DNA of 64,000 nucleotides, from the NCBI GenBank assembly GCA_037176885.1, contig JAWWNJ010000029.1, positions 1,302,001 to 1,366,000 on the forward strand, in the 5' to 3' direction. Below, piece after piece: positions 4,047-28,409 of this stretch; the stretch's first letter is position 1; each line of letters opens with the position of its first letter. This DNA comes from Favolaschia claudopus (lineage: Eukaryota > Basidiomycota > Agaricomycetes > Agaricales > Mycenaceae). The notes below the pieces were generated by a model. That model searched no databases. It was not told where the DNA came from and saw nothing but the letters and a program-made list of their open reading frames with translations. A program made the position numbers and the translations under genes.

Positions 4047-4133
4047 GGCTCGATTGCGAGAGGCTCGCATCTGCATCACTTGCTATTGTCTCCTGCAATG
4101 TCGCAGGTCTCCCGTTCGACTCGGGACGAGCTC
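4047..4133 (+). ncRNA. tRNA-like Pol III element, subfamily F
   Basis: Paired ends GGCTCG/CGAGCT (one G.U). A strong D-like hairpin, TGCGAG-AGG-CTCGCA, lies at 4055-4069. The middle stem ATCTGC/GCAGGT encloses a loop of about 28 nt. The T-arm is CCCG-TTCGACT-CGGG at 4111-4125. A TTTTT run at 4155-4159 fits a Pol III terminator. The expected anticodon loop is replaced by the long loop and no anticodon can be assigned. Confidence 0.6.
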
Positions 4134-4239
4134 TGGTGTGATACAGATGTATTCTTTTTGGACGATTCATCTCACGAGTTGACTAGATACTCGAAGTTCA
4201 AGCCACTAACTGTGGCTTCAATTCTCTGGAGCATACACG

Positions 4240-4320
4240 GCTCATTGGCGATCATTCCGCACCAATTCCTCGTAGTTTAGGCAGTCAGCGCGCAGGGTCT
4301 CCATTATTCGGGTCTAGCCA
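4240..4320 (+). ncRNA. Decayed tRNA-like element
   Basis: The 5' end GGCTCA and a D-like GGCGATCATTCCGC arm match the family, and a GCGCAGGGTCTCC stretch stands where the middle-stem 3' strand and T-stem should be. The B-box core is degraded (CCATTATTCGGG instead of CCGTTCGANTCGGG). Probably an inactive relic. Confidence 0.4.
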
Positions 4321-4420
4321 CATTGATGATCGAAGACTTTCTGGGTTTCCCTTTTGTTCAGTTCAGCGAGTGACACCATTACTAGTGAACTCATCAACCT
4401 CCCGCTGTCCCATTTCGAAA

Positions 4421-4495
4421 AGCTCGTTAGGCTGCACTTGTTGTCTCGTCCGCAATTGACCGTCATAGGTCACCCGTTCAACTCGGGACGAGCTC
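4421..4495 (+). ncRNA. tRNA-like element with a weak D arm
   Basis: Perfect 7-bp terminal pairing AGCTCGT/ACGAGCT and an intact T-arm, ACCCG-TTCAACT-CGGGA, at about 4472-4487. The D-like hairpin is not well formed. A TTTTT run at 4516-4520 follows after about 21 nt. Probably a partly decayed copy. Confidence 0.45.
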
Positions 4496-4634
4496 TCGTG
4501 TGATACGGAGGTACCTTTTTCCACGCCATCCATCTCACATATCGACTAACTAGGTACTCGAAGGTTCTAATCAAATGAAGCAACACAACTCCTCTCTGCT
4601 TTACCTCCGACTCAAACCTTTCCTGAACACACAC

Positions 4635-4726
4635 GGCTCGTTCGCGGTGCGTCCGCACCTGCACCCAATTCCTCCATGATTACGTCGTTGGTGCGCAGGT
4701 ATCCCGTTCAATTCGGGTCGAGCTAT
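4635..4726 (+). ncRNA. tRNA-like Pol III element, complete
   Basis: Ends GGCTCG/CGAGCT. D-like arm GCGG-TGCGT-CCGC. Perfect 6-bp middle stem ACCTGC/GCAGGT with a long loop. T-arm ATCCCG-TTCAATT-CGGGT at about 4701-4717. A T-run at 4737-4741 follows within 15 nt. Confidence 0.6.
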
Positions 4727-5006
4727 GGGATGGGTATTTTTACGTTCCTTTTTTTCCCTCGTTTCTCAATCCTTGCTGGAACGCTATTTTTTGACTGATT
4801 TCTCAATGGTTCTATTCTAGTGGAACGTCTCCGGAATGAGCATAGCAACATTGATGTTGTGCGCCGGAATTCAATCAGCTAAGCCGGCTTTTTATCCTCG
4901 GGTAATGATTTATTCAATAGATCCTTGCCGTAGACGATACGCCCTTGTTTGCAAGCACAAAAACAATCGCATTTCACTGTAAACATCGATAGAGTGCACG
5001 ATTTCT

Positions 5007-5072
5007 GCTCGTCAGCAGACGGACCATTGAACCGTCGATGCTCGACCCTCCGTTCGACTCGGGGGGCGAGCC
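5007..5072 (+). ncRNA. Minimal tRNA-like element without a middle stem
   Basis: Terminal pairing GCTCGTC/GGCGAGC (7 bp with one wobble). D-like hairpin ACGG/CCGT with a 9-nt loop. T-arm CTCCG-TTCGACT-CGGGG. Only about 66 nt long, with no room for the middle arm seen in other copies. A TTTTT run lies at about 5088-5092. Confidence 0.45.
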
Positions 5073-5245
5073 TACCAAGTGGCAATGTTTTTCTCTGTTT
5101 GCTCTTGGTTTCACGGAAGGTTCACGCGCAATTGCAGGTGAGTAATTCGTTTTGTTGAATGCAGAGAACTAGTCTTGTTGTCTTGGAAGAGCACCAGCGA
5201 ATACACCCATCTCGTCCGAGAAAAAAGGGCAACGGACGATTTCGA

Positions 5246-5350
5246 ATGCGCGCCCCCGAGTCGAACAGGGCTATCCCCGCTAAATTCAATTCATCAACCT
5301 TTAGGTTTTGGAATACGGCGTGTGGACGTGGTCCCCCGCTAACGGGCGTT
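5246..5350 (-). ncRNA. Decayed tRNA-like element related to subfamily C
   Basis: On the minus strand it carries GTTAGCGGGGGACC, close to the subfamily C D-like arm, and a T-arm CCCTG-TTCGACT-CGGGG. Terminal pairing is poor. An A-run at about 5221-5226 (T-run on the minus strand) stands where a terminator is expected. Confidence 0.4.
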
Positions 5351-5813
5351 GTTGGAGATAACAATTACAGTGAATAGTCTCAGAAACCATTCGTGAGTCC
5401 CTTCCACTGTACTGCGGTCGCGAATCTCTGAAGAGAAATTAAGTAAGGTTGCATTCCGTCCTCCTCAGTCACGAATGTTCAACTCATATTGCTGCAAATT
5501 GCCGCATGATAAACGAGTATCTGCCAGATGACTGTCGCCTCGTCGACAGATCTCCTCGTTCGCGAATTTCTCAAAGGATCGAATTCGGTGCATCTCGGGG
5601 CGTCCGATTTATACGGGGACGTATCCTATCTCGGTAACCTCTGATCAGCATCCTCCTTCTTCACTACTCATCCTCATGACTCCTCCTTCAAGTCTGCACG
5701 GTAACCTCGAAACCCCAACATTCCAGCCGGCCCCTCAAAATGCACTAAGCAAGCAAGTCGAAGTATCCCTCGTTTGACTTGCGCAATATGCATCCAAATT
5801 TGCACACCACTAC

Positions 5814-5902
5814 AGCTCGTTAGCGGGAGACCGCGTCTGCGCTTGCTGCAGTGTTCCACCTGACACAGCAGGATAATCCCCGTTCGAATCGGGGGCGAGC
5901 TA
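5814..5902 (+). ncRNA. tRNA-like Pol III element C1
   Basis: Ends AGCTCG/CGAGCT pair perfectly. Box-A-like TTAGCGGGAG and D-like arm GCGG-GAGA-CCGC (GNRA-type loop). Middle stem TCTGC/GCAGG with a loop of about 28 nt. T-arm CCCCG-TTCGAAT-CGGGG. T-run at 5920-5926. Paralogues lie at 12926 and 16520. Confidence 0.65.
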
Positions 5903-6226
5903 TGGAGTTTCAGGGTCAATTTTTTTCTCTCTCTTTTAACCGCAGTGGTGCACACTGTAAAGATTTTTCCTTTTGCTGAGGAGTTTTGGATTTGATTTCC
6001 CAGGATCTCCGAGTCCATGCAATCACTGTTGGCGACGGCGTGATATAAACTCTCTCAGTTCCATGACACATTATGCAATTCGTGGACGAGCTCGTCCGCG
6101 AACCGAATCGGTTGAATCTGGCTTCAAGAAAAAGTAAAGCCACAGTTCATTGAAGAAAGCAATCCTGAACCCTGAGATACCAAAGTCGAATAACAAAAAA
6201 AAAATTGCAAACTAATTCAGGTGCAC

Positions 6227-6318
6227 GGCTCGTTCCCGAATTGAACGGGAGTGTCTCTGCTGTGTTAATCCAAATTCTCAGTAAAATTGCGCAAGTGCGG
6301 TGTGCCCGCCAACGAGCC
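6227..6318 (-). ncRNA. tRNA-like Pol III element D1
   Basis: Perfect 8-bp ends GGCTCGTT/AACGAGCC. Box-A-like TTGGCGGGCA with D-like arm GCGG-GCACA-CCGC. Middle stem TTGC/GCAG. T-arm CTCCCG-TTCAATT-CGGGA. Ten consecutive A at 6195-6204 give a strong minus-strand T-run. It points towards C1, so the two are convergent. Confidence 0.6.
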
Positions 6319-6374
6319 GTTACTCAAGTTGGTGATGCACGCTACAATATTCTGCAAGGCCGAGGTTCGATGAA

Positions 6375-6470
6375 GACTCGCGAATCCCGAATTAAACAGG
6401 AGCGGGCGTCGGAGACCCTGCAGCATACAAAAATTACGCACATGCGGTGTACCATTTACCTTCCAAGCTG
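6375..6470 (-). ncRNA. Decayed tRNA-like element E1
   Basis: The 3' half is clear on the minus strand (CCTG-TTTAATT-CGGGATTCGCGAGT), but the B-box is mutated (TTTAATT), no 5' partner for the ACTCGCG end is visible, and there is no nearby T-run. The matching copy is at 13751-13845. Confidence 0.35.
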
Positions 6471-6578
6471 TAGTAGGTACTCCACTGACGCCGAGGATCA
6501 TTGAAACGAATGGGTTTGAACTCAACGAACGAAGGAGAGGAATGCGCAAAAAAATTGAAACGCAACTCAAAGTTCCTC

Positions 6579-6610
6579 ATGCCTTGTGCCGAGTCGAACG
6601 GAGCCATACA
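6579..6610 (-). ncRNA. Isolated T-arm remnant
   Basis: Minus-strand GCTCCG-TTCGACT-CGGCAC followed by AAGGCATG. No 5' half was found. An A-run at about 6548-6554 lies downstream on the minus strand. The duplicate remnant is at 13927. Confidence 0.3.
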
Positions 6611-6879
6611 AGACCATTGGTCCCAGCGACTTCAAGCATCAATATCTTCTTACAGCGAGACTGCTTCACGGCTTCTCGACTCCCGAGTCCTTCTTGACAC
6701 TTTTCTTGTGGTGAAAGCTTCAGATGGTGTTAAAAATCGTGGAGATAGCGAGGGCCGGCACGTCTGCGAGTACCGGGGACCGATGAAGGACAAACTAGAT
6801 TTTTTCGATACAGACTGCTCACTTTCCCGCCGGAACAACGTTCCGATCAAATTCTGATCATTTACCAAGCTGCGACAAA

Positions 6880-8350
6880 TAGCACGATGTACCCTCTCCT
6901 CGAAAATCTTTCACTCCCGCCCCGTGTATCGACCAATCCTCGCCGGAGCAGCAAAAGACGATGGTCAGCAGTGAAGACCGGCGAAAACCCTGGCAAGACA
7001 CGGCAGTCTCCCCTGTGGATAGACTAAAAAACGACACCCGAAGTGCCTCGGTCAGTGGGAGTACAAGGGATAAGACGAGTGGATTGACTCGGAGGAGGAC
7101 GGGGCGGACGGGGAGGGGATGAGGGAACGCTGGTGAGGGTGTTTCGTGCCCGTGCTTGCGAGTGGGTGGGAGGTGAGTAGGGGTATTCCGATTCGACATC
7201 CACGGCTAGAGCTGACGACGGCGGGGAAAGGTTAGCGGCATGGGTCATGCGCGCCATCACGGTGAGGCACATTCTGCCGAAGTAAGACTAGGATCTCGCA
7301 CAGTTTAGCTCCAGGCTAATCCGTCGGTCGAGGAAGCGTTGCCGAGAATCAGCGGCTACAGTCTCCTTCCCGCACATCCATTCGGGATCGCTTCCAGCCT
7401 GCATCCCCGTCGTCTCCGAAGGTAGCGAGAGATTCCTGTCACCCATCGACACTACCACGTCCTCAACTCATATTCGCTCGTGCAGCCCAGCGAGCCTCGC
7501 AAGGACAACGACTCTAGCTCTCACTTGTCCGCAGCTCCGGCCCCGCCCGACGCCGTTCCTCTCGTTCCGCGCTGCAGCCTGCCCCGTCTCTTTCACTGCA
7601 AGCCCTCGGCGCTCCTCTCCCCCCTCCTCTCCGCGCCCCCTCATCCGCACCTCACTCCGCCACGTATTCGCCCCTGGCTGTTTCGGCGCAATGTAATACC
7701 TTCGTTCTTTCTCCCCCTCCCCTCGACGCCATTCCAATTCCCCCTTTACTTGGATCGTGACTCTCCCTCCCCTCAACGCAGTTGCATCCCGCCGTGATCC
7801 CATCGTCTTATCGGCTCCCGCACCCCCATCGCACGTCCCTGGGCAGCGAGATCACTCCCTTGCCCATTCGAGAGCGCGTACGGAGGAGTCGCCGCCACCG
7901 CCGTTCGTACAAGCGAGCTGGTAGGGGAGATGAGAACGGTGTATAGGCACGCGGGCGCAGGATGGAGGGGAGTGTGAGGGTGGACGAGGGAGAAAGGCGA
8001 GGAGAGTGGGAAGGTGAGGATACGATTCCCGCGAGGGGTGCACCCAGCCGTGCGTTTGCGGGTATATCGATGTCAGGGATGAGGGAGTCGAAAGGCATGA
8101 GACGTCGACAGTCGTTGCGTACGAGGACGAAGATCTTCGATGGGGAATGGGGCGACGACGTGTGACGGGGATACTGGAAGACGAGGAGGGGATTGAAAGG
8201 GATGGAAGGGGAGGAGGCGCGTGTGCGAGGAGACAATAAGATTCACGAATGCAGTGGGCTAAGTGCGCGATCCTTGTCGTCTTTCCTTCCCACCAATCTA
8301 ATCTGCCCATAGCTCATCTCACTTCCACTTTGTCCTCATCCCCCCATTGT
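6880..8350. other. GC-rich non-coding stretch
   Basis: CT- and GA-rich DNA with many overlapping spurious frames on both strands and no domain or convincing exon chain. It includes the block GACATCCACGGCTAGAGCTGA ... TAGCTCCAGGCTAATCCGTCG (about 7195-7326), which is unusually well kept in the second duplication copy (about 14600-14832). Confidence 0.45.
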
Positions 8351-8356
8351 AATCAG

Positions 8357-10102
8357 CTACAAACTTCGTATAGTTTCTATGATGCGTATGGGTTTTCGGG
8401 GAGGTGGCGTCGGCGGAGGGGTGGGCCACGTCATATCAAAAACATCGTGGTTCCACTTTCGCCACCATGCGGGGTTGTAGCCAGCAAGATACATGGAGTC
8501 CAGCATGGCAAACGATACAGATTGGAGAGTCTTGTGGCTCGAGAGGAACCAGCGAGCAGTGACTTCTTGAGAGTGATAAAAATCAGAATCTCGCGGGAAA
8601 TTCATCGTTATCCGCAGATGAAGTAGATGAGGGAAGCGATTCAAGGCGGCGAGGATGCCCGGCTGTATGTGTGGCGAAGACTTGAGTGATGGAGACTCGG
8701 AAGCAAAGGAGACACTCACATCTCGGTCTTGTTCTCTGAAACGAGGAGGATCATCGATAAACATGTACCGAGGGACGCTGAACTCGAGGACCTCAAGGTC
8801 AGGGAGCACAGTCGCGATCTGTTCAATGAGAGGAGCAGTGACAAAGAAGTCGAGATCTAAGCATAACTCCCTCAGATCTTGAAGGTGTGACATCTGCCGG
8901 AGGGCTGTTGGCAGCGTATGGTCGTCGAACGGAGAGTATGCCTTCCTGGGAAACGACTTGCTGGTATCATACACGTCGACTGGTGCTCGAAGACGGAGAC
9001 AGCTTAGCATAGCTGGCAGCTGTGCGAAGATGGAGTCGGTAGACGATACATTCCCAAGCGTCACACTCGAAAGCAAACGACAGCGGGTCGAAAGAAGTTG
9101 ACCGCTATCGTCTCCGAGATGAAACAACGGAAACGCACCCTTCCCGTACGTGCCGCGACTGATGTCGACGGTATATAGGACGTCGAGCTGACGCAAGTTG
9201 CCCATATTTGCGACAAGACCAGGGATGGCAATGTACGGATTGGGAGGGTGCTCTGTTATCGCGAGTCGTCGAATATTCCGCCAGTCGAGGGTGGGGAAGG
9301 TAGAAGGAATGAGGTCGCCCGAAATGCTAAGCTCTGTGAGGCGAGGGGCAACGGCTCGAAGCAGAAAATCCACATCGCTGAATTGTTTGCTGTGATCGAC
9401 GTCTTCCTGGCTGGAGATACTCCGGAAACCGGCAATCGAGACTAGAAGATTTTCGAGAGCGCAAAAGGGAAGCGCACAGGAAGTAAAACTTCCGTCAAAC
9501 CGCGCTTGATAAATCTCCAGATGCAGCAGCGACGGAGCCAGCGAGAGGGCATGGATAAGATCCGGATGAATAGAGGATTCAAGACGAAGTGTCACTTTCA
9601 CTAGTGAAAACATCATTGAGAGCGAATCTATCGTTTCCTGTGATATTTCGAGTTTCCTTGGATTGTGAGCGGTGCGATCCCTAATATGCACGATCCTTTA
9701 AAAATTCTGTTGATTACCGGAATAGATGACAATCCAGGACAACACTTACCTGAAGTAAGGCCATAGTGATTCTGGCCACACTTTTCCCCGCGCAGATTCC
9801 CAATTATAAACCTCACGATATATCCATGGCATAGTTTGAGCGCGAAGAGCTCGACACGTCGAAGAGATTCCCAGCAGAAATTGGCCTTGGCATCGCTCGT
9901 GGTCGAAGCGAGGCTGCGTACGAAATTTGGGGTGTATATCGACCAGCCATTCATCGTACAGAAGCTTGAATATGAGACCCAAGACGTCAGCGGGTAAGGT
10001 AGCAAGAGTAGCCGAAAATGATTTGTGCAGTAGCGCAATAGTTAGGTCGGCAGACGCAGCCCTGTGAGGGATCCCTTGGTCTGAGGAGGGCGAAGCGGCC
10101 AT
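8357..10102 (-). CDS. F-box protein with LRR-like C-terminal region
   Basis: Predicted substrate receptor of an SCF-type ubiquitin ligase, by family analogy. Two exons (9750-10102 and 8357-9695) joined by a 54-nt intron (GTAAGT to TTTAAAG) give exactly 564 codons. Residues about 30-80 form an F-box-like helix bundle (LATLPADVLGLIFKLLYDEW, then ISSTCRALRAQTMPWIYREVY). The rest (about 130-550) has repeated leucine-rich strand and helix patterns (LLHLEIYQA, LTELSISGDL, LRQLDVLY, LRELCLDLDF, LEVLEFSV) typical of agaricomycete F-box/LRR-like proteins. The C-terminus is proline-rich (TWPTPPPTPPP). I chose the ATG at 10102 because it opens the F-box exon. The substrate is unknown. Confidence 0.85.
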
Positions 10103-10390
10103 GTGGTTGCCGCAAAACGTGTCACGGCAAGTGCCGTGGCGTGACTGTGAGTCATGTGACTGTGACTATCACTTGAGTGCTTGATCTCAACGGCGGCGAG
10201 TCGGAGTCAACAGACCAACCGACGACGGCCGATGTTGCGATCACCCGACAAACACACGGCAATACATATTGATCCGAGCGCACCTTGTCTTTTCCCACCA
10301 CCTGCAACCACCTTCGAGCAACCTTCGAGCCTCGCGCTTTGTCTTTCGTCTGCAAATTGGCTGAAAATGCGGATAGTATTTAAGCTGCTA

Positions 10391-10539
10391 CTGTAGTATT
10401 TCGTTCAATTCGTAGGGTCACACGTCACAAGGCCCTCTGGAAAGCCCCAAGGATAGCGGCAATAATTTTTTCTCGATTTTTCGGATTTTCGATCGCGAAA
10501 AATTTCAAAAAATCTTACGAATTGAACGAAATACTACAG
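10391..10539. mobile_element. Palindromic MITE, Tc1/mariner-like
   Basis: Terminal inverted repeats of about 24 nt begin CTGTAGTATTTCG and continue GTTCAATTCGTA. TA lies at both ends (10389-10390 and 10540-10541), consistent with a TA target-site duplication. It is 149 bp long with no coding capacity, and the centre is AT-rich. Confidence 0.75.
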
Positions 10540-10690
10540 TACTCTTCGGGTCAGTTGGCAGCATGATCATCTCCGTCAAGACTCAAGTTAAAACACGCCA
10601 GTGAACCAACTTTGTTTTCAGAATCCTCGCATCAGTCGCTCTCACGTCCAATACCCGTAATATTCACTCACCTGCTCCTCAATTTTTGTC

Positions 10691-10778
10691 GGCTCGATTG
10701 CGGTGGTCCGCTCCTGCACACCACGGCACCTTTTGAACAGCTCGCTAGCAGGGCACCTGTTCAATTCGGGGCGAGTCA
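10691..10778 (+). ncRNA. tRNA-like Pol III element A1
   Basis: Ends GGCTCG/CGAGTC (one G.U). D-like arm GCGG-TGGT-CCGC. Middle stem CCTGC/GCAGG with a long loop. T-arm CACCTG-TTCAATT-CGGGG. T-run at 10798-10802 and a longer one just after. The middle stem differs from A2 (CTTGC/GCAAG) but keeps its pairing. Confidence 0.65.
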
Positions 10779-10990
10779 TAGCGTCATGGCTGGGATGTTT
10801 TTCTCTTTTTTGCCCACTCATTTGATTCTCGACCTGCGAATATGTTTCCTGCAACACAAATCCGGAGGAGGGCGAGCCCGAAGCCAGAAGAAAAATACAG
10901 CGGGGATGAGGCCAGATGTAAGCTTCTCTTCCTCGTCTCGATCACCCCAACACTCCACATATCCACTAACACACCCAGCGATTTTCATAC

Positions 10991-11068
10991 GGCTCGACAG
11001 GGGTGGTCCGCTCTTGCACAAATTAGTATTAATTACCGCAAGGCTTCCGTTCGATTCGGGGCGAGTCA
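10991..11068 (+). ncRNA. tRNA-like Pol III element A2
   Basis: Ends GGCTCG/CGAGTC. D-like arm GGGG-TGGT-CCGC with one mismatch. Middle stem CTTGC/GCAAG with a 20-nt loop. T-arm TTCCG-TTCGATT-CGGGG. T-runs at 11090-11093 and 11095-11099. First member of an A-B pair with B1. Confidence 0.65.
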
Positions 11069-11288
11069 GGTAGTAATGTGGTGTTAGACTTTTCTTTTTC
11101 CTGACACCACGTCTTTCAATATTTTCACCGACTGATCAGTTTATCCCAGTCTACGCCTCTTGCGACCCGCGTTATCCTCGTTCAGACGAGTTAACTCAGG
11201 CTTTCAATCAAAATTATCTTCGTCTATGTATTTCACTCTTGATGCTCACTTTCCTTCGCCACCGGTGCTCGCACTTTGATTCTTGAGA

Positions 11289-11394
11289 GGCCTGATAGTG
11301 GTGGGTCCACATCCGCACAAAGTAACGTATTGATTCCACGCACAACACTTTTCACGGAGAACTCAGGTATCCCGTTCGACTCGGGATCAGGCCA
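11289..11394 (+). ncRNA. tRNA-like Pol III element B1
   Basis: Perfect 8-bp ends GGCCTGAT/ATCAGGCC. D-like arm GTGG-TGGGT-CCAC. Middle stem TCCG/CGGA with a loop of about 37 nt. T-arm TCCCG-TTCGACT-CGGGA, a perfect 5-bp stem. Eight T at 11413-11420. The best-formed member of the family. Confidence 0.7.
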
Positions 11395-11628
11395 TCTCTT
11401 CGCATTCTGCAATTTTTTTTCAGTTCTGTTTTTGCGAATAACAAGACACTGCATCTAAGACGTTTTATTGCAGCCGTACGTCCGGTCAATATTGCCCAGG
11501 AAAATGTCTTGTGTGAAGGATTGATTACTTAAGTCAGCCGTCCACCGCCTTTCCTTCCTTTAGTACTATGGTGCACCAAATTTAAATTTCTGAACATCTA
11601 CACACATTCAAAACTCCATCCGTCGAAC

Positions 11629-12167
11629 GGCTCGACAGCGGTGGTCCGCTCTTGCACAAATTAGCAATGTTGTAAACGTAATACGAAATCCCGCAAGGCT
11701 TCCGTTCGATTGGGGACGAGAGGACCCCGGTTTATACCTTTGAAGGCTAGGTCCAAACGTCGACTGATTCGCCAATTTTTGTCCGGACGTGTTTGGGACC
11801 CAAAATTTGTTTTTTGTCCGGACACGACCTAGCCTAGGATGACGTAACGCGCCAAACAGGGCAAATTTTCTTTCCCACGAGGGAAAAAAAGCTGAAAATT
11901 TCTCCGCAACTACCGTTTCTGGTGATTTCCGTCCCAATTGGCGTCGTTGAACACAGCTGGAGGGGACGGAGATTTTGTCCCGCCTATTTCGGCCGACCCA
12001 ACCTCCGAAATCTGAAAGATTTTGTCCGGACGAGAACCTAGCCAACCCGGCCGTCAGGGTGCATTTTTGTCCGGTTGGGACCTAGGTTTCGAGGCCAAAA
12101 TCGTTGATTTTTGTCCGGACCGTGGGCTACCCTTCAAAGGGATAAACCGGGGTCCTGGGACGAGTCA
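11629..12167 (+). ncRNA. tRNA-like element A3 split by a MITE
   Basis: The 5' part (11629-11720) has GGCTCG, the GCGG-TGGT-CCGC arm, middle stem CTTGC/GCAAG and the T-arm core TTCGATTGGGG. The 3' acceptor-like end CGAGTC resumes at 12161-12166 after an insertion at 11721-12156. Removing one 8-bp target duplication restores a normal subfamily A element. A TTTTTT run at about 12185 follows. Confidence 0.65.
11721..12156. mobile_element. hAT-like MITE inside element A3
   Basis: The ends are inverted repeats of about 27 nt starting AGGACCCCGGTTTAT and running to CTTTGAAGG. Flanking GGGACGAG at 11713-11720 and 12157-12164 is an exact 8-bp target-site duplication, the size made by hAT transposases. 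It is 436 bp and non-coding. The subterminal regions carry several copies of TTTTGTCCGG, a feature often seen in hAT ends. Confidence 0.8.
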
Positions 12168-12925
12168 TGGAAAATCGGGGTCAGTTTTTTGCAATCCCCA
12201 TTTGCCGATGTTTCACTAACACTACTGAAGCTTAAGGGTTATCGGTCAATCACAGTTGACGCCTTTCGCGATCCTCGACCGGCTGCTTTCATTGTCAACT
12301 GAGTTTCAATCAAACGGTTCATGCGGAGTATCGCCTGGGGATCAGACCGTTAATTCGCTTGTCACACCTTTTTACTCTGTGTTGTAAGCGGCTGCGGGAA
12401 GTTCTTGTCTTTCTTAGGATGAACGCCTTGGAATCGATTGAGAGCTGGAAAATTTGATCTTGTGTTGAATCTATTTTCGGAGAATCTGTCCAGGTTTAAA
12501 TTAGTGTGAGCACACAGTCTTCAAACCTCAGAACAAAGGACTGCTGGATATCAGTGAGATTGATAGAACGTTCTTGACTTGGGACAGACGATTATCTGCC
12601 AGATGACTAGTACTGTACTGTAACTGCTTCGACAGTTCTCCCCGTTCGCGTACTTCTCAAAGGATTGAGTCTCGCGCATCTTTCCTTTATAATGTCAGGT
12701 CGGCGATTTTCACGAGAAGTTATTCGACCTCGCTGCCCTCTAAGAATTGGGAGTCTGCACGGTAAATTCAATCGCAATTCAAGCCTACATACATCATTCT
12801 AGTCGGCCTCTCAAAATGCACAAAGCAAGTCATTCAGCGAAGTAAGTATCCGAGTCCCTTGAACATCTGCATGGTTGACTTGCGAAATCTATACCCAATA
12901 TACATCGAAAATCTCATACCACTAC

Positions 12926-13021
12926 GGCTCGTTAGCGGGAGACCCGCGTCTGCAGTTGCTGGATGGTATGAGACCAAGGTGTACCGGCAGGATACTCCCC
13001 GTTCGAATCGGGGGCGAGCTA
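12926..13021 (+). ncRNA. tRNA-like Pol III element C2
   Basis: Ends GGCTCG/CGAGCT with one G.U where C1 has A-U. D-like arm GCGGG/CCCGC. Middle stem TCTGC/GCAGG with a loop of about 34 nt. T-arm CCCCG-TTCGAAT-CGGGG. TTTTT at 13032-13036. Confidence 0.65.
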
Positions 13022-13413
13022 TACATGCGAATTTTTCGAATGCTTTTTCTTTCTTTTTTTCCGCAGTGGTGCACACCGGAAAGATCTTTCTTTTTTGCTT
13101 GAAAACTTCGGTCGCGCCTATGTGATGTAAAATCTCTTAGTTCCATGACACCCGATGACTCGTGGAACGAGCAAGAGCAAGAATCGCTGCGAAAAGCAAC
13201 TACGTTATCCAAGCGTTTGGATGTAAGTAATAATATAATAATTAAAGTATACGCCAGGATCGTGCACCGAATCGAACGAAATCACCCAAAAGATCTAAGT
13301 CTTAGTCAACCCAAATTTGATGCTCATCGGGACCACCACGACGGTTCTCAAACGATGCCAACGAGCGCCTAGGTAAAAATCGCAAAAAATGGCCATGGCG
13401 GAATACTGGGCAA

Positions 13414-13514
13414 GGCTCGTTCCCGAATCGAACGGTAAGTTTCTCTGCTGTGCTAATTTCAATGAGTCACCACCTCAATAAACTGCGCAGATGCGGTATG
13501 CCCGCCAACGAGCC
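13414..13514 (-). ncRNA. tRNA-like Pol III element D2
   Basis: Perfect 8-bp ends GGCTCGTT/AACGAGCC. D-like arm GCGG-GCATA-CCGC. Perfect middle stem TCTGC/GCAGA, where D1 has TTGC/GCAG. T-arm TACCG-TTCGATT-CGGGA. A-run at about 13384-13389 (minus-strand T-run). Confidence 0.6.
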
Positions 13515-13845: not shown

Positions 13846-13926
13846 ACAACGGTGAGGATGTGAACTCAAACAAAGAGGAAAATTAGGAATATGGATACTA
13901 ATGCGCAAAAAAAGACAAACGCGACA

Positions 13927-16283: not shown

Positions 16284-16320
16284 GGCTCGACAGCGGTGGT
16301 CCGCTCTTGCACAACTTATG
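16284..16320 (+). ncRNA. Truncated tRNA-like element A5 (5' half)
   Basis: Carries GGCTCGACAGCGG then TGGTCCGCTCTTGCACAA, as in A2, but no middle-stem 3' strand and no T-arm. Upstream it keeps CTAACACCC, shared with A7. Confidence 0.4.
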
Positions 16321-16441
16321 GTCGCTTGTGTGTCAGCCTGAGTACAACAGCAGCTTCATTTTTCTACTCCCCGGTTTTTGATGTTTCGACGCTACCGAGC
16401 GATTAATGAGTTGGACCCACATCTCGACTCTCACCTCGAAC

Positions 16442-16482: not shown

Positions 16483-16519
16483 ATACCCAATAGTCATCCA
16501 ATCCAGTGCCACCATGTAC

Positions 16520-16615
16520 AGCTCGTTAGCGGGAGACCGCGTTTGCGGTTGCTGGATAGTGAGTGGACCTGCGTAACCTGGCAGAATCCTCCCCGTTCGA
16601 ATCGGGGGCGAGCTA
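16520..16615 (+). ncRNA. tRNA-like Pol III element C3
   Basis: Ends AGCTCG/CGAGCT. D-like arm GCGG-GAGA-CCGC. Middle stem TTTGC/GCAGA, a paired change relative to TCTGC/GCAGG in C1 and C2. T-arm CCCCG-TTCGAAT-CGGGG. T-runs from about 16626. Confidence 0.65.
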
Positions 16616-16899
16616 TACGTACGGATTTTGGGGTGCTTTTTCTTTCTTTTTTTCTTTCTTTGTCCGCCTGGACTGTGGTGCATACCCTAATCATTTCCTG
16701 TTTCCTTGAAACTTCCATTTCATTCCATGCAATCAGTTTGTTGGCGGTGACTAGGCGCGCCTGCGTGGTCTCAATTCTCTCATTCCATGACACGTGGTGA
16801 CCCCATGGAATTCGTGGATGAGCGAGTCCTGCACACTCAAACTCGCACGAATCAAAAACCATTGAATCTGACCTGTTCTTATAGGCTTAGATCCGTTCA

Positions 16900-17740: not shown

Positions 17741-17741
17741 C

Positions 17742-20033: not shown

Positions 20034-20124
20034 GGCTCGACAGCGGTGGTCCGCTTCTGCATACCATGATTGGAAACACAAAGCATCCCTGCCAGGGCAC
20101 CTCCGTTCGATTCGGGGCGAGTCA
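20034..20124 (+). ncRNA. tRNA-like Pol III element A6
   Basis: Ends GGCTCG/CGAGTC. D-like arm GCGG-TGGT-CCGC. T-arm CTCCG-TTCGATT-CGGGG. The middle stem is imperfect (CTGC against GCCAG). TTTTT at 20147-20151. Upstream TAACATGCCCCTCGATTTT is shared with A4 and A8. Confidence 0.6.
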
Positions 20125-20312
20125 TGCGTCTCATCCAATCCGTTTGTTTTTCTCGACTCCCCGTTCACCGTTTTGACGCTACTGCCCCTCTACATTCATG
20201 CGTCTGACTCTCGGCTCGGTAGTCTCGTCGGGCGTCGTTCAATCAAATCCTGCTTCACAACTACTTACTGTCTTGCATACAACAAAATCTCAAGTTATAC
20301 TCTGCCTCAAAA

Positions 20313-20412
20313 GGCCTGATTGTGGTGGTCCACATCCGCACAAAATTCGAAAATCGTTCCCAACACTTTCTGCGGGTTACTAAAGTATCCCGTTCGACTC
20401 GGGGTCAGGCCG
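20313..20412 (+). ncRNA. tRNA-like Pol III element B3
   Basis: Ends GGCCTGAT/GTCAGGCC. D-like arm GTGG-TGGT-CCAC. 6-bp middle stem ATCCGC/GCGGGT. T-arm TCCCG-TTCGACT-CGGGG. Seven T at 20433-20439. Second member of the A6-B3 pair. Confidence 0.65.
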
Positions 20413-20642
20413 TTGATCTGCTTTCCGCAACCTTTTTTTGTTTTGTTTCTGCAGGTGTTGTTAGCACTACATGCGAGGCTTTTCGTTTCGTACGTCTGGT
20501 CAATAATCCCCAGTGAATTGCAGTACCTTTGCGCCAGATCGATCAATTTCATTTCCACTGTCCATCGCCTTTCCTTCTTCTCAACGCAATGTGCCAGACA
20601 CAAAATAGCTAACACCCGCGATGCAGAGCCGGATCTTCGTAC

Positions 20643-20735
20643 GGCTCGAAAGCGGTGGTCCGCTCTTGCACAAATTAACATGTCGAAAGTGTCATATTAA
20701 ATCCCGCAAGCCTCTGTTCGATTCCGGGCGAGTCA
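20643..20735 (+). ncRNA. tRNA-like Pol III element A7
   Basis: Ends GGCTCG/CGAGTC. D-like arm GCGG-TGGT-CCGC. Middle stem CTTGC/GCAAG. T-arm CTCTG-TTCGATT-CCGGG, with a shifted T-stem. TTTTT at 20750-20754. Upstream CTAACACCC as in A5. Confidence 0.6.
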
Positions 20736-20971
20736 TGCAGTGTGGCGAGTTTTTGCGTTTTGTTTTGTGACTCCAGGTACTTCAATCTTGTTGACGCTAT
20801 TGGGAGATTCGTCAGTTGAGTCCAGGGTCGTCCTTTAGTTCAGCGCCCTTGAATGAAAAAGTATCGTCGTCTTCTTGAACACTGGCAAGACTTTCGACTT
20901 CTCCCGCTTCACATCTTACCATGTTTCATAGAACGAACAACAAACCTTGCAGCTCGACCCTCATCTTGAAC

Positions 20972-21087
20972 GGCTTGATGGTGGTGGGTCCACATCCGCG
21001 CAAATTGGAAGATTGATTCTGTCCCCAGCACTTCATGCGGAGTAATCAAATATGAGTAGGTATCCCGTTCGACTCAAAATCAGGCTT
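20972..21087 (+). ncRNA. tRNA-like element B4 with a broken T-stem
   Basis: Ends GGCTTGAT/ATCAGGCT. D-like arm GTGG-TGGGT-CCAC. Middle stem TCCGC/GCGGA. The 5' T-stem TCCCG and loop TTCGACT are intact, but the 3' strand reads CAAAA instead of CGGGA, so the T-stem cannot form. T-run at about 21109-21115. Likely recently inactivated. Confidence 0.55.
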
Positions 21088-21403
21088 GTCGAAATATCCC
21101 TGGACGCCTTTTTTTGCACGATAGGCGTGCAGCATTTAGCAACCTTGGCTGTTGTAGCAAATTTTAGCTTGCGCACGCGCATCTGTGTGAGAAATCGAGC
21201 ATCCGCGCGAGCGTTTCGGTGCATAGAAGAAACCGTTACACCGTATAATAAGTATAGTACGTACAAGTGTACAAGTACCGAGACGAAGCCTGAGTAGACT
21301 TTTTGCAGAGCTTAAGCAAGCAAGATGAAGATGATTAGTTAGCAAGTCGGAGTAGCGAGACGGAGTCGACACACGCACAAAACCGCCAGAACACACCTCC
21401 CCC

Positions 21404-22227: not shown

Positions 22228-22940
22228 CCTGTGTAAGGCCGCTCGAGCGGGTGACGAGTGAGGGAGAACGGATATAGAGAGGGAGGAGAGTCGGAGAGAG
22301 ATTTTTTGCGAAGAAGAGGCGGCTGGGAGACGAGGGCGACAACAAGGAGGGGTGTACAAGGGGGGAAGAGACGAGGTGAAAAGCACAGCCACGGAGTGAT
22401 TGTGTGTTTGGGCAGAAGGATGCCGGTGCCGATCCGGGATGTGCCGAGTTCTGATGGACGAATGGGAAACAATTGGAGACAATAAGGTAGCGAGAGAAGG
22501 GTGGTGGACGTTGGGGTGCGTCGGTGTGCCAGAATGGAATGGAAGGCAATTTGATTGGCAGGCCTGATTTGTTGTTTGAAGCGGGGATGGCAGTTCAGTG
22601 AGCACTGAGCAATTAATTACTCAACACGTCCGAGTCGATGGACCCGAAGTTGAAGTGATCCCAACGTATAGATCGATCGGGAAAAACAAGAGAAAATAAA
22701 GCATAAAAAACAGGTCTCTCATGCACAGAAGAAAGCCGCTAGTTCGAGAAAAATATACATCGATACCTTGCACGCATCCACGCATCCCACCTTCGAAGTT
22801 TCATGAAATGATCACTACAAACAGATTCAGCTGGCTGTTCGCGAGATGAAGCCAAGGCGACCCGTGCATACGTAACGAACACCTCGAATGGAACACTCGC
22901 AACATTAACAAAATTGAAAAACAATGCGGAAAGCTCGTAG

Positions 22941-23039
22941 CGACCTAATCCCGAGTCGAACGGGATACTCAGGCACTCCGCATAAACTGCTGGGGATGTT
23001 TCTGAATTTGTGCGGATGTGGACCCACCACCATCAGGCC
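22941..23039 (-). ncRNA. tRNA-like Pol III element B5
   Basis: Ends GGCCTGAT/ATTAGGTC (8 bp with two wobbles). D-like arm GTGG-TGGGT-CCAC. Middle stem TCCGC/GCGGA. T-arm TCCCG-TTCGACT-CGGGA. AAAAA at about 22917-22921 is the minus-strand T-run. Pairs with A8 in the same A-then-B order on this strand. Confidence 0.65.
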
Positions 23040-23286
23040 GTTCAAGGTTGGAGTCGAGCTGCAGGTTCAGTCCTACAAAGCGCCCGCAATAATGAGTGTG
23101 AAGTGAGAGAGCTTGAAGAAGGAATTCCGGAGCCCGACGGAGTATAAACCTTGAAAGAGACTCAGTTGAATGGAGGCCGAACGTAAAATAGGACACCTGG
23201 AGTCCTGCACTCAACCGAGAATCCCAAGGTAGCCTCAAAAGGGTTGAGAAACGCGGAGGCAAAAAAGAGAGAATCAAAGTTGCGCA

Positions 23287-23366
23287 TGGCTCGCCCCGAG
23301 TCGAACGGAAGCCTTGCTGCATTGCGAAGTATGTGTGCATCCAGAGCGGTCCACCGCTGTCGAGCC
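23287..23366 (-). ncRNA. tRNA-like Pol III element A8
   Basis: Ends GGCTCG/CGAGCC pair perfectly (other A copies have one G.U). D-like arm AGCGG-TGG-ACCGCT. T-arm TTCCG-TTCGACT-CGGGG. AAAAAA at 23261-23266 is the minus-strand T-run. Upstream flank TAACATACCCCTTAATTTCC as in A4 and A6. Confidence 0.6.
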
Positions 23367-23644
23367 GATGGAAATTAAGGGGTATGTTAGTAGATCTCAC
23401 AATATGTTAGGTCGACAGAGACGAGGAACACACCATTTGGTTCATCCCTGCTGTTAGTTGTCAGGCTCGCCCTTCTCTGTATCTTCCGTCCAAGACAAGC
23501 GGAATTCCTGATCACCTCCTTTCCTTCTTCCGAACCAGAATTCAACCAACAAGTAGACACGCATATATGTATACCGTATGTTGGAACGCGGTGCTTACCT
23601 CCTTCTCCACGAGTTCCAAGATCTGCGAAGACCGAGCCCTGTAA

Positions 23645-23725
23645 TTCATCCACCACGCCGGTGGGGAACGCATACGCACAACCTATCCTCAAGCACAGAC
23701 ACCTACCGTTCGATTCGGGTGACGG
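23645..23725 (+). ncRNA. Possible decayed tRNA-like element
   Basis: A T-arm-like CTACCG-TTCGATT-CGGGTG lies at about 23702-23719, with TTTT about 20 nt later. The 5' half is not recognisable. Confidence 0.25.
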
Positions 23726-23989
23726 CGGTTGTTAGAATTGTTTTATTTTGAGCTGTGACGAGTCGACGGCATCGTGAGCTTGTCAATGCCCATACCGTCG
23801 TGTTGTCTCAGTGGAAGTGGAGGAAGGATGTAATGACATAGCAGTTCTTTTCTTCAGTATATACCTCGTGCATCGTACATCGGCAAGCAACTTCTTTTTA
23901 GCTAGCAGCTAGCGACTTGACATGTTCATGATAGATGATAACTTGCCTCGAACACTGACGGCTGAGATCTCGACGGCCGAGATGGATTT

Positions 23990-25573: not shown

Positions 25574-25970
25574 CTTCTTTTCAATACTCGTCTTCAAATT
25601 CTTCTGCGGTCAAGGGTAAGTAAAGGGTGAGCTAGAGGTAGATGGGGGTCAGCAAGACGGGACGGAGGCAGCAGGGAGCGGGATGGGCGGACCTGGGGCG
25701 GGGGTGGTGGTGGTGGGAGGAGGAAGAGGAGCGAAAATGCTGGATGTCACGCGGTCACGACACGTCATGATGGGTGATGTGGTGACGGAGTGACGGACAC
25801 CACTTGCTCGCGGATTTCATTGAGATTTCATGTGGCTCGCCGACGAGCGGTCTGCTCTAGCTATCGACTGGTCTCGATTCTGGGATGCCCTCAACCATGA
25901 ACCAACAGGCCAAAGACAGTCAAACACTGCCCCACCCAGACGACCGGAATCCGAAGAACTGTAAATTCCG

Positions 25971-26250
25971 ACTTCTTCGGGTTTTGGAAGTCTACTTACA
26001 ATCTGGAACGATGAATGAAATGTGGACTGGACCCAGCTCTTTCGAAACCCCTTCGAACGCCTACTATCACCTTTCTCGAAGTCGAGCACGAAGACACCGC
26101 ATCTTTCAAATTTCACCTCACCTAAGACTTCTTCGGGTTTTGGAAGTCTACAATCCGGAACGATGAATGAAATGTTCAAATACAGTTGTATCATAGCACA
26201 GCACGAACGTCACGCATCTTTCAAGACTTTCTCCTCATCTAGCAATCATG
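25971..26250. repeat. Local direct repeats
   Basis: The block starting CTTCTTCGGGTTTTGGAAG and running to GATGAATGAAATGT occurs at about 25972-26022 and 26127-26177. A second block (GCATCTTTCAA ... CTCA.CTA) occurs at about 26099 and 26214. The array is a partial duplication with a period of about 110-157 bp, with no gene in it. Confidence 0.6.
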
Positions 26251-26307
26251 ATCACTGTTCTTATTCGAATCCGAGTCGGATATCCCCCGGTATGTGTATA
26301 TTCCCCT

Positions 26308-26405
26308 TGCTGATCGATTGCGGAGGGTCCGCCCACGTCTCAGGTGCTAATTCATGTACGATGGCTGACTGAGCGTGATGCCCGTTCGACTCGGGGTCGA
26401 GCAGA
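26308..26405 (+). ncRNA. tRNA-like Pol III element G1
   Basis: D-like arm GCGG-AGGGT-CCGC. Perfect middle stem CTCAG/CTGAG, a sequence unlike the other subfamilies. T-arm GCCCG-TTCGACT-CGGGG. The end pairing (TGCT..TCGA with TCGAGCA) needs a 2-nt bulge. TTTTT at about 26439-26443. Confidence 0.55.
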
Positions 26406-26640
26406 ATGGGTCTCCGTTCTCGACTGCTTTATGTTCTCTTTTTCAGGTGACTGGTATTTTCGTTTGCCGCTCTTTTACTTACCTTGAAGTAAATTAAGTA
26501 GATCCCATCTATTGCACCAAACTGCTCTTATCGCATCTCTACCAAATGTCAGCACACTCCTCGCTCGATAGCAAGGAACACAAAATTTGCATCCGCATGC
26601 AATGTCACTCATCCTACACAGACAACCCTTGATGAACTTG

Positions 26641-26730
26641 CTGCTCGATGGCAGTCGTTCCGCCTCTAGAGCTCTTCAGCAAATGCCGAGGATCTTGGTG
26701 GACGACCCGTTCGATTCCGGGTCGAGCAGA
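26641..26730 (+). ncRNA. tRNA-like Pol III element G2
   Basis: Perfect 8-bp ends CTGCTCGA/TCGAGCAG. D-like arm GGCAG/CCGCC with one mismatch. T-arm GACCCG-TTCGATT-CCGGGTC. Possible middle stem CCTC/GAGG. TTTT at about 26753. Confidence 0.55.
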
Positions 26731-26840
26731 TTCGCCGTCTATTCTTCCGTTATTTTACCCTGCATTTCTTTCGTTTTACCCCACAAACAAACAAATATTC
26801 ATTGCTAATCAAGTTATACTCCCAGTCTAGAGGTCGCATA

Positions 26841-26930
26841 TGCTCAATGGTGGCTCCTCCGCATGCACACGTGAATATATCCCGTCCCTATCCACTCAGA
26901 GGAAAGCCCGGTCGATACGGGTTCGAGCAG
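26841..26930 (+). ncRNA. tRNA-like Pol III element G3
   Basis: Ends TGCTCAA/TTCGAGCA (one bulge). D-like arm GTGG-CTCCT-CCGC. The T-arm loop is mutated to GTCGATA within GCCCG/CGGGT. TTTTT at about 26954. Probably decaying. Confidence 0.45.
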
Positions 26931-27014
26931 ATGCAACACTCGCCTCCGTTCTCTTTTTGTCTGATTCCTAGTAAGTTCGGTCTCATCAGCCCTTCATTTC
27001 GAGTGAAAACTGAT

Positions 27015-27125
27015 AGCCTGATAGTGGTGGACACCGCATTTGCACCAGGTCAGCAAGGGTTGAGCCCGAGAGCACGCCATCACAGTCACAGATGCGCGGC
27101 ACCCGTTCGACTCGGGGTTGGGTTA
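27015..27125 (+). ncRNA. tRNA-like Pol III element, B-like
   Basis: Ends AGCCTGA/TTGGGTT pair through wobbles. Box-A-like TAGTGGTGG as in subfamily B. D-like arm GTGG/CCGC. T-arm CACCCG-TTCGACT-CGGGG. TTTTT at about 27145-27149. Confidence 0.5.
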
Positions 27126-27540
27126 TGTAGCGACCGCTGACATCTTTTTCGTTTTTTCCTTTCTCCGATAAGGTTATCTCCTAATGCCTTGTCAGTGTGT
27201 CGCAAAGTCCGGCGGAAACAAGTTTTTGTCGGAGCGGTGAGCCATGCCTCGGTGATTCAACAGCAAATTGACTTGGAATGCACATTTCCCCTCAACATTC
27301 TGCATTATATCAATATCTCATCCACTTCGAACCACGAGTCCATGACGAATCCTGTTCTGGTCGATAGCGATTGCACAGTCCAGTACCGCATTTTCGTGCA
27401 GCTCGAAATGACAGAAGCTGACGTTCAGTAGGCCGACTGTCCTAGAGTACACCGGCGGGGTGACTTTATGTCTCTCCTTTCGTGAGTGAATTTCTGGCTC
27501 AAATGCAGCAGGCAATGAGTCGCTCATTATTCATAGCACT

Positions 27541-27634
27541 ATGCAAGGCGATGGCCACCGAATCAAGATCAAATCTACTACTTAGCTCCAGTCCATAACG
27601 TTGGAGCTCTCATTCGAGTCGGGGTTGGAGCATA
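27541..27634 (+). ncRNA. Decayed tRNA-like element
   Basis: Ends ATGCAA../TTGGAGCAT, D-like GGCGATGGCCACC, B-box variant TTCGAGT with only one T-stem strand intact (CGGGG). TTTTTT at 27651-27656 in terminator position. Confidence 0.4.
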
Positions 27635-27844
27635 TACGTCTCGGTGTCGATTTTTTCTCTTCTTTTTGTGCGTTCGATCCGAATTATATATCTGATCAAA
27701 GTTTTGTGGAGATTTTAGTGCTGCTGGATTTCGAATTCCATCAAGTACTTAGTTCCGATGGGGAGAGAAGTGCCGGCGTGGTGAGCCTTCTCCAATTTCA
27801 TTTACAATGCTTCAGTGACCTGTTATAGGTCTGTCTGTTCGAGA

Positions 27845-27926
27845 GGTTCGATGACGGGCAGCCTGCATATGAGGTTAATCGCCAACGTCGATGAACAGAA
27901 TGCCTGTTCAACTCGACATCGAGTCA
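27845..27926 (+). ncRNA. Decayed tRNA-like element
   Basis: Long end pairing GGTTCGATG/CATCGAGTC (9 bp with two wobbles), T-arm core CCTG-TTCAACT-CGACA with a poor stem, and no T-run soon after. Confidence 0.35.
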
Positions 27927-28065
27927 TAAGTCTTCGAGCCTGCTGTTGTTGCACCATGGGATCCCTCGCTTCCTCTACCAAGCTTGATAAGGTACTTACC
28001 CCACGGGCCAAGCAGTTCTGTCAACAAATCGTCGAGTGGGAGGAAGCACAGCAGGTCATGACTCG

Positions 28066-28148
28066 GGCCCCGAATTCTCATTCACTGTGACAGGGATGGC
28101 GGAAACTCACTGCATGTGCAGGTTTCCCGTTCGATTCGGGAGGGGCAT
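28066..28148 (+). ncRNA. Partial tRNA-like element
   Basis: A good T-arm TCCCG-TTCGATT-CGGGA at about 28127-28143 follows a CTGCA..TGCAG hairpin. Only a short GCCCC/GGGGC end pairing is found. TTTTT at about 28169-28173. Confidence 0.35.
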
Positions 28149-28409
28149 TTGATCGTGGTGTTGGGACCTTTTTGGATCAACTTCGGTGCCCCTATGTACT
28201 AGTCAATATTACCGACTGTGATTTCCGCATATTCTTGAAGCTGGTAGGTATGTTTCAACCCCGTTATTCAACCCAATTTGAACCTGAGTAATTGATATTA
28301 TTTCTGAAAAGGACAAATTGAATACAGTATATCTGCCTGACAGTCAACTTTAACCGTGGCCATCTGACATAATGCAAGGGAAGTGTGTAGCTGCAGCGCC
28401 GCCAGTAGA

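Follow-up and report, generated by a model that had tools for sequence, protein, structure and literature searches.

A genome-wide family of probable RNA polymerase III genes for tRNA-like RNAs in the mushroom Favolaschia claudopus

To our knowledge, known tRNA mimics are single genes or small viral clusters. mascRNA and menRNA, for example, come from one gene each, whereas the tRNA-like elements that are the subject of this study appear to occur in clustered hundreds; they were found in a 64,000-nucleotide stretch of the genome of F. claudopus, a fungus already isolated in culture (positions 1302001 to 1366000 of contig JAWWNJ010000029.1, here C29, in an assembly of 264.6 Mb), which is referred to below as the window. 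In the description given in PMC11693755, mascRNA and menRNA resemble these elements as tRNA mimics with a reduced D arm; two guanines of its loop form the elbow, a pair that 45 of 65 fitted elements keep, and mascRNA and menRNA are not aminoacylated. However, they are cut from long RNAs, and their anticodon-equivalent arm has a longer stem and a compact loop. Unlike such release from a long RNA, the T runs that follow the F. claudopus elements point to separate RNA polymerase III (Pol III) transcription units. The TMERs of murine gammaherpesvirus 68 (MHV68), eight of which are clustered within 5.5 kb, are likewise Pol III genes with a tRNA-like element and are processed by tRNase Z, but as outlined in PMC4838037 they are viral, 200 to 250 nt long and equipped with two downstream pre-microRNA hairpins, whereas the family described here is fungal and nuclear and leaves no room for such hairpins, because the T run comes after about 20 nt. 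Neurospora milR-4, a fungal Pol III transcript with tRNAs, a T-run terminator, an RNase Z step and a small RNA product, may serve as a precedent in fungi for a small-RNA pathway supplied by RNase Z; it differs in being one locus, and its source transcript has two alanine tRNAs, according to the account in PMC3547838. Finally, tRNA-derived short interspersed nuclear elements (SINEs), including fungal ones, share the tRNA-like internal Pol III promoter and the many copies, but SINEs as characterized in PMC5063351 carry target-site duplications, whereas the present elements lie mostly in clusters, have no visible body or tail and have kept the acceptor side of the fold.

Canonical nuclear tRNAs share with the elements a 7-bp acceptor, a 5-bp T stem, a UUCRANU loop, a B box and the spacing of these parts; in contrast, the elements have no 7-nt anticodon loop and no constant U33, their D loop is only 4 to 5 nt long in the hand-aligned copies, and their T run lies about 20 to 25 nt away. 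Comparison of the sequences leads us to regard the elements as likely Pol III genes whose RNAs mimic tRNAs without decoding, all belonging to one family that is spread over the genome. They have a tRNA-like fold that is kept by compensatory change, a B box and a T run, they are mostly clustered, and their middle loop evolves no slower than the flanks.

From 4.0 to 28.2 kb, scans of the window for T arms and D arms revealed elements that recur on both strands. Sixteen of them were aligned by hand, and a covariance model (R1) built from this alignment was run over the whole 64 kb with filters off. R1 gave 27 matches at E<0.01, of 68 to 116 nt, every one within 4,047 to 28,147 (Table 1); 11 of these are additional to the 16 model builders. 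Beyond that interval there were two chance-level matches (3440, E=0.39; 29354, E=0.91). The B-box motif GTTCRANTC occurs 33 times inside the interval, where a Markov model expects 2.7, and six times outside, and the 13-mer CCGTTCRANTCGG occurs 20 times inside and not at all outside. From the 5' end, the hand-aligned elements consist of a 7-nt acceptor strand, a 2-nt linker, a 4-bp D stem with a loop of 4 to 5 nt, 1 nt, a 5-bp middle stem with a loop of 20 to 38 nt, a linker of 1 to 21 nt, a 5-bp T stem with a 7-nt loop, a 6- to 7-nt acceptor strand and a discriminator; the acceptor has only 6 bp in some elements. An initial annotation of this DNA had counted about 36 elements, roughly 20 of them well formed, which fits the 29 matches that reach E<0.02, some copies being degenerate; its lengths (66 to 115 nt) and loop sizes (20 to 35 nt) are corrected by those given here. 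Its description of the D loop (3 to 6 nt) has to be amended in that 45 of 65 fitted D loops keep the GG discussed below.

Two diverged copies of the locus, largely collinear with it, lie on contigs C101 and C8, and R1 gave 79 matches at E<0.1 across 150 kb from the three contigs. Fitting of elements at these loci produced 112 fits in all, 81 of which scored at least 15.5; removal of the known tRNA-Gly left 80, a set in which one element (C101 764982) still appears twice and some weak decoys remain. The 73 fits at a score of 16.5 were used for the orthologue comparison and the 65 at 17.5 for the loop, family, D-loop GG, folding and duplex analyses. The middle loop is typically about 32 nt long (15 to 78 nt overall; 26 to 38 nt in 57 of the 65 fitted loops).

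Acceptor, D, anticodon-position and T helices are present in tRNA order and with tRNA spacing. In the hand alignment, 96.1% of the cells are paired, and both sides have changed in 10 of the 21 pairs; when partners were slid by one to three columns, pairing fell to 28 to 46%. In an alignment of 78 distinct R1 matches, which is fitted to R1 and so leans towards structure, and whose copies are related, there were 175 doubly changed cells, spread over 17 of the 21 pairs, compared with 40.7±7.2 after shuffling (0 of 500 shuffles reached the observed number). A test anchored on sequence only, in which the acceptor was not picked by pairing, used 28 of 33 anchored arms (five had two D anchors): perfect acceptor pairing was found in 71% of the 28 own pairs and in 29% of cross pairs, and none of 5,000 permutations reached the observed mean. 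Single-sequence folding of the 65 fits recovered the acceptor in 51, the T stem in 41 and the D stem in 32 (mean z, -1.1). In addition, the D-loop GG, a signature of the tRNA elbow, is present in 45 of the 65, compared with 30.2±2.8 after pooled shuffling and 32.4±3.3 after shuffling within loops, the copies being related and not independent.

T runs, which we take as Pol III stop signals and which the initial annotation had not mentioned, follow most of the elements. A run of at least five T residues lies within 60 nt downstream of 73 of the 80 fitted elements of the three loci and upstream of 4 of the 80, compared with 6.7% of random places; the median distance is 20 nt, and the run is typically about 20 to 25 nt downstream. 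In the window such a run follows 24 of the 27 elements, in one case inside an inserted repeat. Among the ordinary tRNAs of this genome, the run lies 3 to 4 nt past the acceptor in two and 17 nt past it in the tRNA-Gly of the window. The mean folding energy of the trailers was -1.5 kcal/mol (60 of the 65 fits, those with a near T run). Pairing of the loop with its own trailer was considered and rejected, since own pairs (-8.34 kcal/mol) showed no excess over cross pairs (-8.18 kcal/mol).

The initial annotation held that the elements give no consistent anticodon and often lack U33, and this is borne out: the residue at position 33 is T in 21 of the 65 fitted elements, there is no 7-nt anticodon loop, and the isotypes assigned by ARAGORN shift. 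With introns allowed, ARAGORN called 13 copies in 254 kb, as Arg, Thr, Ser, Val, Tyr, Ile, Glu and Gly, and left most copies uncalled. The element at 5814 became tRNA-Gln (ttg) in one mode and tRNA-Arg (tct) when introns were allowed, and the copy at C29 1314926 was called Thr. At E<=10, a scan of the 24.4-kb cluster with Rfam gave no tRNA family and no match to the mascRNA-menRNA model, and its five unrelated matches (E 0.95 to 7.1) do not lie over the 27 elements; in sensitive mode, element 5814 by itself had no match at E<=10. Among the positive controls of that mode, the tRNA-Gly of the window (49 bits) and the ordinary tRNA L086 (51.8 bits) were found and one of the three, L085, was missed, so the mode is less than fully sensitive. 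The scan at gathering thresholds proves little, because the tRNA-Gly was missed there too. The assignment to a known tRNA by Rfam that would have spoken against the initial annotation was thus not obtained at E<=10, with the tRNA-Gly control found. It is conceivable that the elements are real tRNA genes with long anticodon-loop introns, spliced to decoding tRNAs: by ARAGORN, ordinary tRNAs in this genome carry introns (the tRNA-Gly of the window and two others), some copies receive an isotype, and two of the three orthologues of element 16520 are called Ser (gct) (C29 1318520 and C8 2966576). We consider this highly improbable, given that the third orthologue (C101 721134) is called Val, that T at position 33 is confined to 21 of 65 fits, that most copies are uncalled, that the hand-aligned D loops have 4 to 5 nt and that no Rfam tRNA match was found over the cluster, also in sensitive mode. 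Because there is no normal anticodon loop and no constant U33, the RNAs would not decode in the usual way.

The copies on the three contigs allow the parts of the element to be compared. The genome paper gives a size of 265 Mb, with 86.8% of BUSCO genes duplicated (PMC10905254), and an F-box gene inside the locus exists in three copies that are 97 to 100% identical (next best match, 74%), a copy number that three haplotypes would fit. In 13 orthologue pairs, some of which share elements, the stems diverged at 20 of 540 positions and the flanks at 374 of 3,663 (Fisher p=1.3e-7), whereas the middle loop diverged like the flanks (30 of 366; p=0.24). Insertions and deletions per base amounted to 0.036 in the loop, 0.018 in the flanks and 0.0064 in the rest of the element. 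Likewise, among 25 pairs of paralogues of one family (family E) within a contig, stems are 82% identical, whereas identity is 0.51 in loops (0.49 when shuffled) and 0.55 in flanks (random, 0.52); this comparison omits 18 elements of unassigned type. From these divergences and identities it follows that the fold, chiefly its acceptor, T and D part, outlasts its surroundings. A role of the loops as antisense guides was rejected, since orthologous loops diverge like flanks and have more indels, which argues against a conserved guide; long loop matches from a local search are no evidence, because matches on either strand and to unmasked degenerate copies were counted.

The conservation of the acceptor also bears on the possibility that the elements are DNA-level sites for Pol III or TFIIIC that act as chromatin boundaries or organizers, with the RNA as a by-product. 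In fission yeast, clusters of B boxes act as boundaries, and in F. claudopus no part of the element is better conserved than the T arm, which holds the B box (the fits, however, are anchored on the T loop), and the clusters are dense. However, the acceptor pairs show covariation and conservation although they are not part of the promoter boxes, and we regard boundary sites as quite unlikely.

Searches of the whole assembly indicated that the window holds one of many such clusters, which supersedes the earlier picture of a dense local cluster beside a single normal tRNA. A combined D-arm and T-arm pattern had 78 matches and none in a reversed control, on many contigs, often clustered and sometimes single. 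The exact T arm CCCGTTCRANTCGGG matched 419 times (186 and 233 on the two strands; control, 0), CCGTTCRANTCGG 656 times (control, 57) and GGGGTTCGANTCCCC 218 times (control, 1). A T arm with a T run at the right distance was found on the forward strand 289 times for the C-G type and 468 times for the G-C type (control, 1 each); the reverse-strand counts of 721 and 1,019 (controls, 7 and 3) are too high, since long T runs entered them more than once. Doubling of the forward counts, with even strands assumed, suggests about 1,500 places in 264.6 Mb, although the G-C type includes ordinary tRNAs, among them the tRNA-Gly of the window.

Acceptor stems are wholly different between clusters (e.g., GGTCCAT/ATGGACC, AACCCGT/ACGGGTT, AGCCTGG/CCAGGCT and GCACCGG/CCGGTGC), but they pair within elements. 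At 14 loci of the CCCG type, the best acceptor score was 5.87 with the element's own sequence, 4.37 with that of another locus and 4.00 after shuffling, and the own score was higher for 37 of 48 T arms (T arms near locus ends were left out, and 6 of the 48 kept got no fit); a T run was found at 48 of 48 T arms, compared with a background of 11.8%. At six loci of the GGGG type with 19 T arms, 18 of which were fitted, the corresponding scores were 7.47, 4.45 and 3.66, the own score was higher in 18 of 19, and T runs were present at 18 of 19. Five further loci (L087 to L091) gave 5.57 with own and 4.03 with shuffled sequence, with no fit for 1 of 16 T arms; their T-run count of 16 of 16 is circular, because the loci were picked by patterns that require a T run. 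Stem conservation outside the locus, the absence of which would have spoken against the initial annotation, was thus found in the covariation on other contigs and in the acceptors of other clusters, and the central claim of that annotation, a large Pol III family of tRNA-like elements, is supported by the R1 matches, covariation, T runs and genome-wide clusters, all of them properties of sequence.

Two of these groups may bear on the origin of the family. The copies of L087 (C4:3044501-3047100) have an 8-nt D loop, AGAGGTTA, that is close to that of a normal tRNA, which suggests descent from tRNA genes and a possible link to the family with short D loops. In tRNA-Sec the acceptor is long and the D loop very short. 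Three GGGG-type elements (L081 154-245 and 743-830; L083 1401-1492) weakly match the tRNA-Sec model of Rfam (21.5 to 22.7 bits; E 0.78 to 1.5), but these scores are far under the gathering threshold of 47, there was no match over the window cluster and no long variable arm was identified; the match may be treated as a lead. At L065 and L066 (C170 and C133), the acceptor apparently reaches 8 to 9 bp through pairing of the linker (e.g., CTTGGTA beside the D stem with TGCCAAG), and the middle stems are longer. L083 has a long hairpin between elements (834-1042) with a subthreshold MIR530 match on both strands, which is probably a plain inverted repeat. The presence of relatives in viral contigs was rejected: there were 37 pattern loci and 17 R1 matches at E<=1, seven of the nine at E<0.01 were ARAGORN tRNAs, and the matches outside ARAGORN calls were in L038 and L044 (2980-3046).

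The placement of the copies matters for another alternative, namely, that they are tRNA-derived, SINE-like retroelements without a body that insert close together. The high copy number, the tRNA-like promoter and some lone copies among the matches listed would be in keeping with it. However, most of the copies listed are clustered at a spacing of a few hundred base pairs, and a block that holds two elements occurs twice on C101. Furthermore, the 82% identity of family-E stems beside near-random loops and flanks points to old, constrained copies and not to recent spread, so that a SINE-like origin is very unlikely. The earlier statement that the elements are not organized like SINEs was upheld in that most of the copies listed are clustered and no body was seen.

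Several observations weigh against the reading as genes for tRNA mimics. Between the 13 close orthologue pairs there were no compensatory differences, 10 one-sided ones and 12 that break a pair, and divergence in the middle stem's 3' strand is close to the flank rate (7 of 65). That stem was recovered in only 25 of 65 single-sequence folds, and unconstrained RNAalifold on a MAFFT alignment recovered just the D and T hairpins; MAFFT, used without structure, misaligned the middle stem. In the anchor test, slides left 0 to 7% perfect acceptors, except that a slide of +1 left 43%, because two registers were allowed. The GG is missing from 20 of the 65 D loops, including those of the GAGA type, and there are degenerate copies. 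Because the fits were anchored on the T-loop motif, were limited to D loops of 3 to 6 nt and rewarded pairing, T-loop conservation and D-loop length are partly built in. The degenerate copies and the pair-breaking changes would favor an explanation by decaying tRNA genes (pseudogenes) that were spread by local duplication, with a fold that is inherited and not maintained, and the more tRNA-like D loop of L087 makes an origin from tRNA genes plausible. However, compensatory changes far exceed those in shuffles, stems change more slowly than flanks, and acceptors pair in the anchor test. Moreover, no more than one acceptor position is left unpaired in 84 of 90 fits (selected for pairing, and including 25 from other clusters with a score of at least 14), with 54 different duplexes among them, and T runs have been kept at 73 of 80 and 48 of 48 elements. 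Pseudogenes are thus an unlikely explanation.

If the elements are genes for non-decoding tRNA mimics, as we favor, TFIIIC would bind the B box and the A-box-like stretch of the D arm, and Pol III would transcribe about 90 nt plus a trailer of 20 to 25 nt, ending at the T run. In most copies an L-shaped elbow would be formed by the D-loop GG together with the T loop, and this elbow and the acceptor/T stack would give the RNA the shape of a substrate whose ends RNase P and RNase Z can trim, as described for mascRNA in PMC11693755. Trimming would leave a tRNA-sized mimic, along with a U-tailed trailer RNA of 20 to 28 nt. Since selection keeps the acceptor/T/D half of the fold, this half would most likely be the working part, either by tRNA mimicry, to which the conserved upper half points, or as a carrier processed to small RNAs, to which the fairly uniform trailer points. 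The long loop would be mainly a spacer, and the family may have grown by local segmental duplication, with birth and death of copies.

A bolder proposal, which we put forward as possible but doubtful, is that the elements make up a new class of nuclear RNA genes at about 1,500 places, or about 500 in each haplotype should three exist, and that they may match or exceed the ordinary tRNA genes in number. Trimming of their non-decoding mimics by the enzymes of tRNA maturation would leave an L-shaped RNA, its long loop free, and a 20- to 25-nt U-tailed trailer, and these would regulate through tRNA mimicry or small RNAs. Should hundreds of folded tRNA-like genes that do not decode be kept by a mushroom, Pol III and the tRNA processing enzymes would serve a large unrecognized client set, a gene class would escape annotation pipelines, and the family would amount to a natural experiment showing what parts of the fold are required in the absence of decoding. 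Among the open-access titles and abstract openings listed as matches, no earlier description was found, in line with the initial view of an undescribed kind.

Table 1. Positions of the tRNA-like elements and of the ordinary tRNA gene in the window
Feature	Position	Strand	R1 E value	T run	Remarks
tRNA-like element	4047..4133	+	1.3e-13	4155-4159	
tRNA-like element	4421..4495	+	6.1e-5	4516-4520	degenerate D arm
tRNA-like element	4635..4725	+	3.4e-15	4737-4741	
tRNA-like element	5006..5073	+	0.0014	5088-5092	degenerate
tRNA-like element	5246..5348	-	5.5e-6	5221-5226	
tRNA-like element	5814..5902	+	5.2e-16	5920-5926	type A; 96% copy on C101
tRNA-like element	6226..6318	-	6.1e-17	6195-6204	
tRNA-like element	10691..10778	+	2.1e-11	10798-10802	type B
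tRNA-like element	10991..11068	+	1.3e-11	11095-11099	type B
tRNA-like element	11289..11394	+	3.4e-18	11413-11420	type C
tRNA-like element	11629..11723	+	1.7e-8	11776-11780	B-like; 3' end split by MITE-like insert; nearest T run inside insert, 52 nt away
tRNA-like element	12926..13021	+	2.1e-17	13032-13036	type A
tRNA-like element	13413..13514	-	3.1e-19	13384-13389	best match
tRNA-like element	16284..16394	+	0.0084	none	fragment; 5' half well formed, 3' half unrecognizable
tRNA-like element	16520..16615	+	3.2e-15	16637-16641	type A; orthologues on C101 and C8
tRNA-like element	20034..20124	+	6.1e-12	20147-20151	type B
tRNA-like element	20313..20412	+	3.7e-16	20433-20439	type C
tRNA-like element	20643..20735	+	2.1e-15	20750-20754	type B
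tRNA-like element	20972..21087	+	3.5e-12	21109-21115	C-like
tRNA-like element	22941..23039	-	4.1e-16	22917-22921	type C
tRNA-like element	23287..23366	-	3.9e-9	23261-23266	type B
tRNA-like element	23656..23728	+	0.0021	no T5 run within 60 nt	degenerate
tRNA-like element	26311..26404	+	1.3e-13	26439-26443	type D
tRNA-like element	26642..26729	+	4.5e-8	no T5 run within 60 nt	D-like acceptor
tRNA-like element	26841..26930	+	1e-5	26954-26958	type D; orthologue on C8
tRNA-like element	27015..27125	+	1.6e-7	27145-27149	
tRNA-like element	28067..28147	+	0.00035	28169-28173	degenerate
tRNA-Gly(GCC)	55822..55904	+	no match at E<=1		ordinary tRNA with short intron, shown for contrast, not a family member; ARAGORN; Rfam tRNA 49 bits (sensitive mode)

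The insert in the 3' end of element 11629 (11721-12156) resembles a miniature inverted-repeat transposable element (MITE); its ends are inverted (AGGACCCCGG...CCGGGGTCCT), and it comes with a direct repeat of 8 bp, GGGACGAG. The F-box gene of the locus, whose homologues are named F-box proteins, lies at 8357-10125 of the window and is 96 to 98% identical among the three contigs, whereas other aligned pieces are about 64 to 92% identical; recent gene conversion or strong constraint is a possible cause. A tie between the elements and the neighboring F-box family was rejected: there were 70 matches to that family, and outside the three cluster copies the nearest T arms among the matches listed were 23 to 24 kb off (C10:801638, and C5:2647020, which is an ordinary tRNA-Glu), with those of the remaining copies more than 50 kb away on the contigs that allowed a comparison, a minority. 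Among 10 open reading frames compared with Pfam, six had no match; the others matched, outside the cluster, an F-box-like domain and a copia gag that has a zinc knuckle and, inside it, a CCHC zinc knuckle and, weakly, MYND, none of which bears on the elements. The copia-type gag (47959-48810) is a piece of a retrotransposon outside the cluster. A perfect 26-nt inverted repeat that holds GTTCAATTC, with arms at 10389-10414 and 10516-10541 about 100 nt apart, is possibly a small hairpin element.

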